Source: Streptomyces catenulae (GTDB lineage: Bacteria > Actinomycetota > Actinomycetes > Streptomycetales > Streptomycetaceae). From it: DNA of 64,000 nt. Made by a program: the position numbers and the translations under genes. Under the pieces are notes generated by a model. It was given only the letters and a program-made list of their open reading frames with translations. It had not been told where the DNA came from and ran no database searches. Positions within the stretch are counted from its first letter, which is position 1; every line of letters starts with the position of its first letter. Below, piece after piece: positions 11,513 to 57,265 of this stretch. The stretch lies in contig NZ_JODY01000017.1 in the NCBI RefSeq assembly GCF_000718015.1, forward strand, positions 1 to 64,000, given 5' to 3'.

Positions 11513-12219
11513 GCCGCCTCCCCGCTCCCCGTGCCGCGGGGGCGCGCCACCGCCCCGTACCGCGGATTTCAGCCGTTGTGCCGTCCATGCTGCCATGACG
11601 GGGGCGTACGGGAGCCGAGCGGAGCGGCGGGGTGGCGCCCGGCGGCGGGGAGTTGACGCGGCGGGCGGGTCCGGGGCGCGGGGTGCGGACCGGAGCGGGG
11701 GCGGGGCGCGCGGCGGGCGCCGGGGGCGTGCCGCGGGGCGCGTCGCGCGGTGACGGAGGGTGCCGGACGGGTCCGCGGCGCGTTTCCGCCGCCCGTCGTT
11801 ATTCGGCCAAACTCTGCTGAACTCCGTTCAATTGGCGCCGCGCCACGGCGTGTCGCACGGTGCGGCGGCGCGGGGCCGCTCCGGCTCGCGCGACGGTCCG
11901 GGAAGCGGGCTGCGCCTCCCGGACCGGACCACCGCCCGCGGGGAATGGAGCGGCGGTATCCCCCAGCCCACCGGATCCAGTACAGCGGGCCGACCCACGC
12001 GGCACCCATGCAAGCGGCGGCGTTCCCGGGGAGGCAGCGCGCACATGTGGGCGCACGGCAACACGTACCCGGAGCACATGCCAACTCCCGCTCCCCCGAG
12101 CCGAGATGAATCTCGCCATCCGGGACACCGGCCCTTAACGGTCGGGATCCGGCGAACTACTCTGGGTGGACGCACGCCCCGGGGCACCGGGGCTGCCGTC
12201 GCAGTGTCGAGGGGTGCGC
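11513..12219. promoter_or_regulatory. Divergent intergenic region between the synthase-like gene and the TPR regulator
   Basis: This 707-bp region holds no gene I can support. Most is extremely GC-rich and low in complexity. The segment 11795-11835 is AT-richer (includes TTCAATTGG) and the segment 12100-12165 also drops in GC, so these are the best promoter candidates. I searched for a short lasso-precursor-like frame beside the synthase gene and found none. Confidence 0.45.
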
Positions 12220-24179: not shown

Positions 24180-24194
24180 GGGGGCGCACTCCTT

Positions 24195-24335
24195 TCCTTC
24201 CTTCGCGCCTACCGGGTTAGCTGACGGGTTCGGAGCAGGAAGGTCTCCTACGGGCGGCCTCTGGCCGAGGCGTCCGATTCACCCCATGGAGGTGGTTCCC
24301 CGGTTCCCTCCGCGCCGCTCGGGGCGCCGGGTCAA
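24195..24335 (-). ncRNA. c-di-AMP riboswitch (ydaO-yuaA type)
   Basis: Read on the minus strand, the leader of the M23 gene contains conserved ydaO blocks in order: GGGAACCGGGGAACCAC, then GGGGTGAATC, GTAGGAGACC, and finally CCGAACCCGTCAGCTAACCC followed by GGTAGGCG. It ends just before GGAAAGGAG, the ribosome binding site. Such elements are known upstream of Streptomyces rpf and other cell-wall hydrolase genes, where c-di-AMP lowers expression. Boundaries are approximate. Confidence 0.88.
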
Positions 24336-24729
24336 AGGCAGGACACATCACGGCAGTTCACGAAATATCGGCGCATCGACGTGCGGGGAGGCGCCGTATG
24401 CGGAAGTGACCACCGGTGTGCCTGGGTGCCCGGCATACCTGAAGAGCGCGTACGGGATTCGGCGTGGGGGCACGGTGCCGCCTCTGCGACGGCTGGGACG
24501 ACCGCGCTCCGTTATCGGACAGTAATAGAGATCGCGGCCGATTTCCAAGCGATCCCGCGAATCCACTCCGTACGACTACGGCTCTTGGCCAAGACTTTTC
24601 GGGGCAACGCACGTACAAACCGGTCGAGTTGATCGTCGTTCACGAAACGGCCTGCGGGTGATTGTGCATCACTTGTTATGCGGAGGGGTGCACATTCCTC
24701 ACGCTCCGTGAGGGCAGTAGCGTCTGATC
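24336..24729. promoter_or_regulatory. Divergent promoter region (M23 leader / DUF2332 gene)
   Basis: This region holds no gene. The part 24500-24700 is AT-richer. TTGTTATGCGG near 24671 is a possible element for the plus-strand gene, and TTGGAA with TATTAC around 24525-24550 (minus strand) a possible one for the riboswitch transcript. Both are weak calls. Confidence 0.35.
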
Positions 24730-55511: not shown

Positions 55512-55832
55512 GTGGCGCAGCGCGTAGTGGTAACGCTCTCCGACGACATCGACGGAGGAGAAGCCGCAGAGACGGTCGCCTTCGGATTGGACGGGAAGTC
55601 GTACGAGATCGACCTCAATCCCGCCAATGCGAAGAAACTGCGCGACACCCTGGAGCCGTTCGTCGAGGCCGGGCGGAAGCGGGCCAGGTCAGGCAGGACC
55701 TACCACCGCACCGCGGTGACCCCCGACCCGGCGGCGGTCCGCGCCTGGGCCCGCTCGCACCAGATGGAGGTGCCGCCGCGCGGCCGCATCCCCAAGAAGG
55801 TCTACGAGGCGTTCAGCGCGGCCAACCACTGA
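55512..55832 (+). CDS. lsrL: Lsr2-family nucleoid-associated protein (LsrL-type)
   Basis: This 106-residue Lsr2 paralogue has an N-terminal dimerisation/oligomerisation domain (MAQRVVVTLSDDIDGGEAAE, VAFGLDGKSYEIDLN). The C-terminal DNA-binding domain has the AT-hook-like RGR motif in VPPRGRIPKKVYEAFSAAN, preceded by RAWARSHQMEV. Lsr2 proteins silence AT-rich foreign DNA and specialised metabolism. Its place next to the pur genes suits the second paralogue, LsrL, rather than Lsr2 itself. The GTG start has AAGGA nine bases upstream. Confidence 0.93.
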   Translation: MAQRVVVTLSDDIDGGEAAETVAFGLDGKSYEIDLNPANAKKLRDTLEPFVEAGRKRARSGRTYHRTAVTPDPAAVRAWARSHQMEVPPRGRIPKKVYEAFSAANH

Positions 55833-55869
55833 GCCGCGCGCGGCCCGCCGGGGCCCGCGCGGAGCCGAC

Positions 55870-55900
55870 TTGCACGGCACCCCTGTTGATCAGCTAGAGT
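55870..55900 (+). promoter_or_regulatory. Promoter of tRNA-Gly(UCC)
   Basis: TTGCAC (55870-55875) and TAGAGT (55895-55900) are separated by 19 bp, 50 bp before the tRNA. The spacing and -10 sequence match the tRNA-Asp promoter candidate at 39147-39177. Confidence 0.5.
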
Positions 55901-55950
55901 CTGGAGCACGCCGAGGGGCGAGGCCGAAGGGCCGGGCCCCGAGGAGTCAT

Positions 55951-56022
55951 GCGGGTGTAGCTCAGTAGTAGAGCGCCCTCTTTCCAAGAGGGAGGCGCAG
56001 TGTGCAATCCCTGTCACCCGCT
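55951..56022 (+). tRNA. Atypical tRNA-Gly (anticodon UCC)
   Basis: The 72-nt cloverleaf has acceptor GCGGGTG/CACCCGC, a D-stem GCTC/GAGC with a seven-base loop AGTAGTA, and an anticodon stem CCCTC/GAGGG with loop TTTCCAA. The T-arm is odd: GCAG(T)G-TGCAATC-CCTGT needs a bulged base and its loop has TGC in place of the TTC consensus. The D-loop lacks the G18-G19 pair (AG instead). Loss of G18 and U55 together resembles tRNA-Gly species that feed peptidoglycan synthesis rather than translation. CCA is not encoded. Confidence 0.88.
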
Positions 56023-56111: not shown

Positions 56112-56184
56112 GCGGACGTAGCTCAGTTGGTAGAGCGCAACCTTGCCAAGGTTGAGGTCGCGAGTTCGAGCCTCGTCGTCCGCT
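56112..56184 (+). tRNA. tRNA-Gly (anticodon GCC), copy 1
   Basis: The 73-nt canonical cloverleaf begins GCGGACGTAGCTCAGTTGGT and has anticodon loop TTGCCAA and T-arm GAGTTCGAGCC. TAGAGT at 56068-56073 is a probable -10 element. Confidence 0.95.
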
Positions 56185-57265
56185 CAGCGAAAAGGCCCCG
56201 GCCGGTGGAGGCGCCCCATTCATTGGCTATAGTGGTCCCCGCACCGCGCGGCGGAGGCCGGAAACGGCCGCCGGATTCGCACGGAGCATGCGGACGTAGC
56301 TCAGTTGGTAGAGCGCAACCTTGCCAAGGTTGAGGTCGCGAGTTCGAGCCTCGTCGTCCGCTCAGCGAAAAGGCCCCGGCCGGTGGAAGCCGCTCGTACG
56401 CCTCGATGTACTTGGCGCGGGTGGCGTCGACGACGTCCTGCGGGAGGCCGGGGGGCGGGAGTTCGCCGTGGCGGTCCCAGCCGGACGCGGGGGACGTCAG
56501 GTGGTCGCGGACGAACTGCTTGTCGAAGGAGGGCTGGGCGCGGCCGGGCTCCCAGAGGTCGGCGGGCCAGAAGCGCGACGAGTCGGGCGTCAGGACCTCG
56601 TCGGCCAGGACCAGTTCGCCGTCCTTGAAGCCGAACTCGAACTTGGTGTCGGCGAGGAGGATGCCGCGACCGCGGGCGATGTCGCGGGCGCGGGCGTAGA
56701 TGTCGAGGGTGGCGCGGCGCAGCCGGGCGGCGGTCTCCGCGCCGACCTGACGGGCGACCTCCTCGTACGAGACGTTCTCGTCGTGGTCGCCGACGGCCGC
56801 CTTGGTGGCCGGGGTGAAGATCGGGGCGGGGAGTTCGGAGCCGTCGACGAGGCCCTCGGGGAGCGCCAGACCGCAGACCGTGCGGGACTCCCGGTACTCG
56901 GCGAGGCCGGAGCCGGTGAGGTAGCCGCGGGCGACGCACTCGACGGGGGCCATGTCCAGGGAGGTGCAGACGAGGGTGCGGCCCGCCCAGTCGGCGGGGG
57001 CGCCGGGGGGCAGCTCCGTGGAGAGGACGTGGTTGGGGACGAGGTCGGCGAGCTGGTCGAACCACCACAGGGAGAGCTGGGTGAGGACGCGGCCCTTGTC
57101 GGGGATCTCGGTGGGCAGCACCCAGTCGTACACGGAGATGCGGTCACTGGCGACCATGATCAGTTCGCCGTCGGCGTTCTGGTAGAGGTCACGCACCTTG
57201 CCGGTGTGAAGGTGGGTGAGGCCGGGCACCTGCAAGGGCTCGGGCTTTTCTACAAAACCGGACAC
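56123..57265 (-). CDS. purC: SAICAR synthetase with antisense-tRNA-encoded C-terminal extension
   Basis: PurC ligates aspartate to CAIR (purine step eight). Residues 1-293 are typical (GKVRDLYQNADGELIMVASD, VARGYLTGSGLAEY, LADTKFEFG, DATRAKYIEAYERL). The family then normally ends within about ten residues. Here no stop follows YERL; the frame continues 87 residues, antisense through both tRNA-Gly(GCC) genes, to a TGA at 56123. The junction (56387) is the edge of the tRNA repeat unit. The enzyme core is complete, so activity is likely, but the true protein end is uncertain. The start is GTG 57265. Confidence 0.85.
   Translation of the reverse strand: MSGFVEKPEPLQVPGLTHLHTGKVRDLYQNADGELIMVASDRISVYDWVLPTEIPDKGRVLTQLSLWWFDQLADLVPNHVLSTELPPGAPADWAGRTLVCTSLDMAPVECVARGYLTGSGLAEYRESRTVCGLALPEGLVDGSELPAPIFTPATKAAVGDHDENVSYEEVARQVGAETAARLRRATLDIYARARDIARGRGILLADTKFEFGFKDGELVLADEVLTPDSSRFWPADLWEPGRAQPSFDKQFVRDHLTSPASGWDRHGELPPPGLPQDVVDATRAKYIEAYERLPPAGAFSLSGRRGSNSRPQPWQGCALPTELRPHAPCESGGRFRPPPRGAGTTIANEWGASTGRGLFAERTTRLELATSTLARLRSTN
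56290..56362 (+). tRNA. tRNA-Gly (anticodon GCC), copy 2
   Basis: Identical to copy 1 across 73 nt. It lies antisense to the 3' extension of purC. Its own promoter is likely TATAGT at 56228-56233. Confidence 0.95.

Follow-up and report, generated by a model that had tools for sequence, protein, structure and literature searches.

The window, a stretch of 64,000 nucleotides from Streptomyces catenulae that lies on a contig (C17) of 190,809 bases in an assembly of 7.05 Mb, carries an unusual tRNA-Gly(UCC) gene of 72 nt at 55951..56022 on the forward strand, referred to here as the special tRNA gene. CCA is not encoded and position 73 is T. ARAGORN calls a tRNA-Gly(UCC) at 55951-56022/3 and the gene scores 52.4 bits with Rfam RF00005, a family with a gathering score of 29, which makes it a transfer RNA and bears out the identity given in a first-pass annotation of this DNA. 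The two adjoining tRNA-Gly(GCC) genes score 70.2 bits with the same family, while the special gene reaches 102.2 bits with covariance model R1, by which it was also located. C2-G71 and U73, both invariant in the 22 sequences of alignment A1, assign it to tRNA-Gly(UCC) together with its UCC anticodon.

Upstream lies a gene for an Lsr2-family protein (55512..55832, forward strand; Pfam PF11774 and PF23359) and downstream a purC-like SAICAR synthetase gene (56387..57265, reverse strand; Pfam PF01259), whose coordinates are those of the homologous part of a frame that remains open beyond; both are conserved neighbours by synteny. Two ordinary tRNA-Gly(GCC) genes, identified by ARAGORN and Rfam, follow the special gene on the forward strand, the first at 56112..56184, with the special gene 89 nt upstream of it, and the second at 56290..56362. 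Farther upstream of the Lsr2 gene, Pfam matches indicate PurS, a glutamine amidotransferase and an AIRS-domain protein. A link to femX was sought in the neighbourhood of the special tRNA and none was found, the neighbours being lsr2 and purine genes. A putative promoter-like stretch can be read at 55870..55900 on the forward strand (TTGCAC, 19 nt, TAGAGT), and a motif count gave at least 80 matches to CTAGAG boxes at -62 to -48 among 173 upstream regions. A Twister-sister match at 55819-55905 on the reverse strand, at 21.6 bits against a threshold of 34, was taken as chance. Elsewhere in the window, the reverse strand carries a match to the Streptomyces sRNA Scr4115 (11892-12000; Rfam RF02829, 97.3 bits against 58) and a c-di-AMP riboswitch (24192-24336; RF00379, 76.2 bits against 38).

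The special gene is set apart by its D- and T-arms, and all of the elements described here are on the forward strand. The D-loop, AGTAGTA (55964..55970), reads A14 G15 T16 A18 G19 T20 A21; the first-pass annotation had recognised this minimal loop and taken both G18 and G19 to be lost, but only G18 is replaced, by A at 55967, and G19 is retained at 55968 with its partner C56 intact at 56005. The anticodon TCC (UCC) occupies 55983..55985 within a loop at 55981-55987 that has T32 and A38. The T-arm (55997..56014), delimited from the Rfam alignment and pair counts, is 18 nt long with stem pairs 49-65 to 53-61; its stem includes A51-U63 at 55999/56012 and can close only if the T at 56001 is left unpaired, this being the bulged base that had been proposed. 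In the T-loop, TGCAATC (56003..56009), position 55 is G (56004) and not U, as first described, and the GTGC sequence that had been singled out is found at 56002-56005. The staphylococcal non-proteinogenic tRNA-Gly shares this GUGC element. Neither the special nor the canonical sequence had the cloverleaf as its minimum when folded as an unmodified single strand. In a normal tRNA, G18 and pseudouridine 55 form a pair with a single hydrogen bond, and the outer pair is G19-C56 (PMC4810234). By this pairing scheme, the G18-U55 contact of the special tRNA is altered on both sides whereas G19-C56, the other elbow contact, is kept.

Conservation of the altered form in Streptomyces

BLAST searches with the gene recovered a full-length special gene in 37 of 37 genomes of the same genus, its own included, and A18 and G55 were read in every one of the 37 sequences. 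A strict sequence pattern matched 177 of 246 same-genus genomes; of the 69 that were missed, ten were tested with R1 and all ten yielded the gene, and the pattern-missed loci that were printed have C in place of T20. In a class-wide search R1 matched 40 of 40 Streptomyces genomes at 96-105 bits and none of 354 other genomes, where the best score was 74.3. For reference, the canonical tRNA-Gly(UCC) of the same genome scores 68 bits with R1, special genes score at least 98 in the test set, and the lowest complete full-form gene elsewhere, from genus g23, scores 85. The samples of 37, 40 and 10 Streptomyces genomes overlap. Meanwhile, a relaxed pattern for altered tRNA-Gly(UCC), blind to T20-to-C variants and to other anticodons, gave two matches outside Streptomyces among 394 genomes of the class and one in a reversed control, and ARAGORN called neither of the two a tRNA.

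The low tRNA score (52.4 bits) and the existence of genera without the special gene might be taken as signs of a decaying pseudogene or a sequence error, an explanation that is very improbable and is refuted by conservation. The loops are near-invariant across the family, the gene comes from independent assemblies, and its stems compensate: in a selection of 22 distinct sequences, 99.6% of the stem cells are paired and two-sided changes occur in 7 of 21 pairs, compared with 0 or 1 in slid controls. Since the special form recurs across the family with compensatory stem changes, it is under selection and is neither a sequence error nor a relic. Furthermore, the gene is amplified, with two or three tandem copies in 8 of 51 carrier loci, which were drawn from the best 80 named loci. 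Three tandem copies lie near 3400-3830 in L278, L285 (S. cinnamoneus), L299, L309 and L319, and two are present in L297, L298 and L322.

Positions 18 and 55 change together. Among 217 UCC tRNA genes, counted as distinct in the gene or its 60-nt flanks but related and so not independent events, 173 have A18/G55, 44 have G18/U55 and none is mixed, which upholds the earlier view that the change is coordinated and not an error. The 44 are made up of 38 canonical genes, of which some belong to other families, and six in which the T-stem is bulged and the elbow is normal, called bulge-only here. Two further special genes (in L286 and L306), which the extraction rule places outside the 217, are both A18/G55. 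G19 is retained in 173 of 173 special genes.

The canonical tRNA-Gly(UCC) of Streptomyces shares its anticodon, acceptor type and U73 with the special one, and is unlike it in having a 17-nt T-arm, a TTCRA T-loop, G18 and G51-C63; the special genes that were read have an 18-nt T-arm with an unpaired base. Pair 51-63 is A-U in all 173 special and all six bulge-only genes, whereas it is G-C in 38 of 38 canonical genes. In the anticodon loop, 32-38 is a Watson-Crick combination in 173 of 173 special genes (C-G in 101, U-A in 72) and C-A in 38 of 38 canonical ones. At 49-65 most special genes (164 of 173) have the strong G-U and nine have A-U, the window gene not among the nine; with G49-U65 so widely kept, A51-U63 alone of the two T-stem changes of staphylococci is general.

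Distribution and history in the Streptomycetaceae

In the R1 searches the special tRNA was found only in the Streptomycetaceae. A family sample of 17 genera has the full form in at least one genome of 13 genera, the bulge-only form in two (g15 and g18) and no such gene in the remaining two, g24 (Peterkaempfera) and g27 (Kitasatospora). G18 and U55 of the bulge-only tRNA were normal in the six genomes read. The first-pass annotation had also raised the T-arm of orthologues, and this is not normal across the family, although in g15 and g18 the same bulged stem carries a T-loop of normal sequence. The bulged T-stem tRNA-Gly(UCC) of these two genera, at the same site (L242, 5676-5748; L243, 5704-5776), is a possible evolutionary intermediate. 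In g23 (L241, 4106-4178) the unpaired T seemingly lies one position earlier, ACATGG as against ACAGTG, and the T-loop is TGCGATT. Genus g29 is mixed, as genome G284 has the special tRNA and G295 does not. The PurC query is also without a match in G295, whereas G284 has PurC as well as the special tRNA; this may be a third loss or an assembly gap.

None of 70 whole Kitasatospora genomes contained the special tRNA when searched with R1, the same model and cut-off having matched 40 of 40 Streptomyces, and it is absent from three of three Peterkaempfera genomes and one named locus. Around the Lsr2 gene, among the best 80 of a larger number of named loci, the special gene is absent in 29 and present in the other 51 of 51. 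In the 29, which consist of 28 Kitasatospora-like loci (of which ten are still filed under Streptomyces) and one from Peterkaempfera, Lsr2 is at least 89% identical to the Kitasatospora query. The lsr2-purC site holds two tRNA-Gly(GCC) genes and lacks the special gene in six Kitasatospora regions and in three of three Peterkaempfera regions; a seventh Kitasatospora stretch that was opened ended before the site. A special tRNA hidden elsewhere in non-carriers was discounted, given that a low-threshold search of three Kitasatospora genomes, two Peterkaempfera genomes and G295 returned nothing above 68 bits.

A PurC tree covers 24 of 29 prepared sequences, five being without enough PurC. Streptacidiphilus (g16), a carrier, stands beside Kitasatospora at 98/93, and Peterkaempfera joins at 84/96. 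The absence label needs two changes on this tree, which favours separate losses. The tree does not fix the order of the steps at the base of the family, where the bulge would have come first and the elbow later. With moderate confidence, we propose that a dedicated non-translational glycyl-tRNA arose in this family independently of the staphylococcal one, and that it is, as far as the searches go, the first in the Actinobacteria. It would have passed from a bulged T-stem that is weak for EF-Tu, as still seen in g15 and g18, to the coupled G18-to-A and U55-to-G changes, followed by loss in at least Kitasatospora and Peterkaempfera.

Decoding redundancy and the likely use of the charged tRNA

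A canonical tRNA-Gly(UCC) with a TTCRA T-loop accompanies the special one in 37 of 37 same-genus genomes. The second, canonical gene that the first-pass annotation proposed to look for is indeed present in the window's genome as a separate gene at G000:C15:95702. With a canonical UCC isoacceptor present, the special tRNA is redundant for decoding, and the possibility that it is the sole reader of GGA was ruled out. GGA makes up 66 of 1295 glycine codons, about 5%, in 27 window ORFs picked by a GC3 rule. As Kitasatospora is without the special copy, it must decode GGA otherwise.

It is nonetheless conceivable, albeit unlikely, that the gene encodes a working translational tRNA for GGA in which drift has simply left the elbow in an alternative A18-G55 arrangement. 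The cloverleaf, the UCC anticodon and G19-C56 are all kept, as is the strong G49-U65 in 164 of 173 genes, and a joint switch at 18 and 55 could preserve an elbow contact. Such a tRNA would be hard to reconcile with the canonical isoacceptor in 37 of 37 Streptomyces and the small share of GGA among the glycine codons of the window, or with a genus, Kitasatospora, that manages without the gene. Its structure also speaks against it: there is an unpaired base within the T-stem of the special genes read, A51-U63 takes the place of G51-C63, and 32-38 is Watson-Crick in 173 of 173 where 38 of 38 canonical genes have C-A.

Use of the special tRNA outside translation, as such, is considered likely; the rarity of GGA in the window, set beside tandem special copies in 8 of 51 loci, was also counted in favour of it. 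The reading preferred here, as a reasonable though far from certain interpretation of the sequence, is that of a functional, dedicated glycyl-tRNA that would avoid EF-Tu and be kept from translation, with FemX as its likeliest user. The retained acceptor stem, U73 and UCC anticodon suggest that GlyRS should charge it with glycine. Judging from published EF-Tu rules, the weak A51-U63 pair, the bulge and the A18/G55 elbow would together weaken binding to EF-Tu-GTP, and free Gly-tRNA would then be available to a tRNA-dependent transferase. U73 has been argued to be the sole protection from D-aminoacyl-tRNA deacylase (DTD) for a Gly-tRNA that does not bind EF-Tu (PMC6097841). The likeliest transferase would be FemX, placing the single bridge glycine onto the diaminopimelate (DAP) of the wall precursor. 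The FemX of S. coelicolor attaches a single glycine to precursors with a D-Ala-D-Ala end, and VanK does so when the end is D-Ala-D-Lac (PMC6001138, PMC4790382); the window's genome has one FemAB ORF. Weissella FemX reportedly depends on an acceptor-stem pair (PMC4052509), and because the acceptor stem is ordinary here, the odd body of the special tRNA would serve avoidance of EF-Tu rather than binding of FemX.

Co-occurrence with FemAB was rejected as proof of the link to FemX, as it does not discriminate between carriers and non-carriers: all 35 Streptomycetaceae genomes tested have FemAB, including 11 that lack the special tRNA, as do seven of seven genomes of Kitasatospora, a genus without it. 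Outside the family, FemAB matches occur in 14 of 22 genomes (13 over the cut-off), where R1 finds no special tRNA. Furthermore, DAP-linked glycine is the norm in the mycelial wall of K. viridifaciens, for which Table 1 of PMC8092295 lists only two glycine-free monomers in the wild type, at 0.69 and 1.00%; these wall data are from K. viridifaciens, and the absence of the tRNA is a separate count over 70 Kitasatospora genomes. The FemAB genes of 11 non-carriers and the DAP-linked glycine of K. viridifaciens make it unlikely that the special tRNA is indispensable for FemX in the family; it may be an aid to FemX or may serve another user. The same wall data (PMC8092295) weaken the idea that Kitasatospora lost the gene through having a meso-DAP wall that needs no glycine bridge. 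Kitasatospora walls contain both LL- and meso-DAP (PMC8545861 for strain SUK42; PMC6113628).

A glycyl donor that acts outside translation for a user other than FemX is possible, though doubtful. That user would be another Gly-tRNA-dependent transferase, or the RNA would have a regulatory role, shared by Streptomyces, Streptacidiphilus and Actinacidiphila and lost in Kitasatospora and Peterkaempfera. This would fit the disappearance of the tRNA from Kitasatospora (0 of 70) and Peterkaempfera while FemAB stays, as well as the glycine-bearing precursors that K. viridifaciens still makes (PMC8092295), and Streptomyces does have Gly-tRNA-dependent FemABX-like enzymes, namely DhpK and Orf11 of BD-12 (PMC12945691). 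However, DhpK and Orf11 belong to single pathways and the tRNA is genus-wide, such that the user would have to be a core gene.

Comparison with known non-translational tRNAs

The way in which charged tRNAs are diverted from translation to tRNA-dependent transferases is, for the most part, regarded as rather unclear (PMC4052509). In a genus amenable to genetics, natural variation that includes carriers, an intermediate and lost states makes tRNA diversion testable, and A18 with G55 would stand in for the G18-U55 elbow contact in a way that is unusual among natural tRNAs. If the proposal is true, a similar solution has evolved twice, and there is a tRNA to use or to avoid when glycine is to be fed to FemX, VanK or Gly-tRNA-dependent antibiotic enzymes in Streptomyces. 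Among the open-licence papers listed, by title and beginning of the abstract and with subscription literature largely outside this search, none describes a tRNA of this sort in Streptomyces or elsewhere in the Actinobacteria.

The closest parallel is the non-proteinogenic tRNA-Gly of S. aureus. According to section 7 of PMC4052509, A49-U65 and A51-U63 there replace G49-U65 and G51-C63, EF-Tu binding is weak, and UU or CU stands in place of G18-G19. The special tRNA resembles it in its UCC anticodon and its redundancy with a proteinogenic tRNA-Gly (PMC4052509, PMC8007984, PMC6097841), in A51-U63 (with A49-U65 in 9 of 173 special genes), in its altered D- and T-loops, in the loss of G18 and in keeping U73, and both hosts have walls with a glycine bridge made by Fem enzymes. 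The likeness to staphylococcal tRNAs put forward in the first-pass annotation therefore stands as regards redundancy, the coordinated change at 18 and 55 and A51-U63, but not as regards a joint loss of G18 and G19. Unlike its counterpart in S. aureus, a member of a distant phylum, the Streptomyces tRNA, known here from its sequence, keeps G19 and mostly G49-U65, and it has an extra bulged base in the T-stem that goes unmentioned in the passages of PMC4052509, PMC8007984 and PMC6097841 drawn on here. The bridge has one glycine in Streptomyces and five in S. aureus.

A second point of comparison is the pseudo-tRNA tRNA-Other of Bacillus cereus, likewise a tRNA-like gene outside translation and one that PMC3399842 links to a wall phenotype. 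In contrast to tRNA-Other, the special gene is a full tRNA-Gly with its acceptor and anticodon intact and is conserved across most of a family. Non-proteinogenic tRNA-Gly is known as a kind; what is new here, as far as has been searched, is its lineage, the way in which the elbow is rebuilt, the bulge and the existence of an intermediate.
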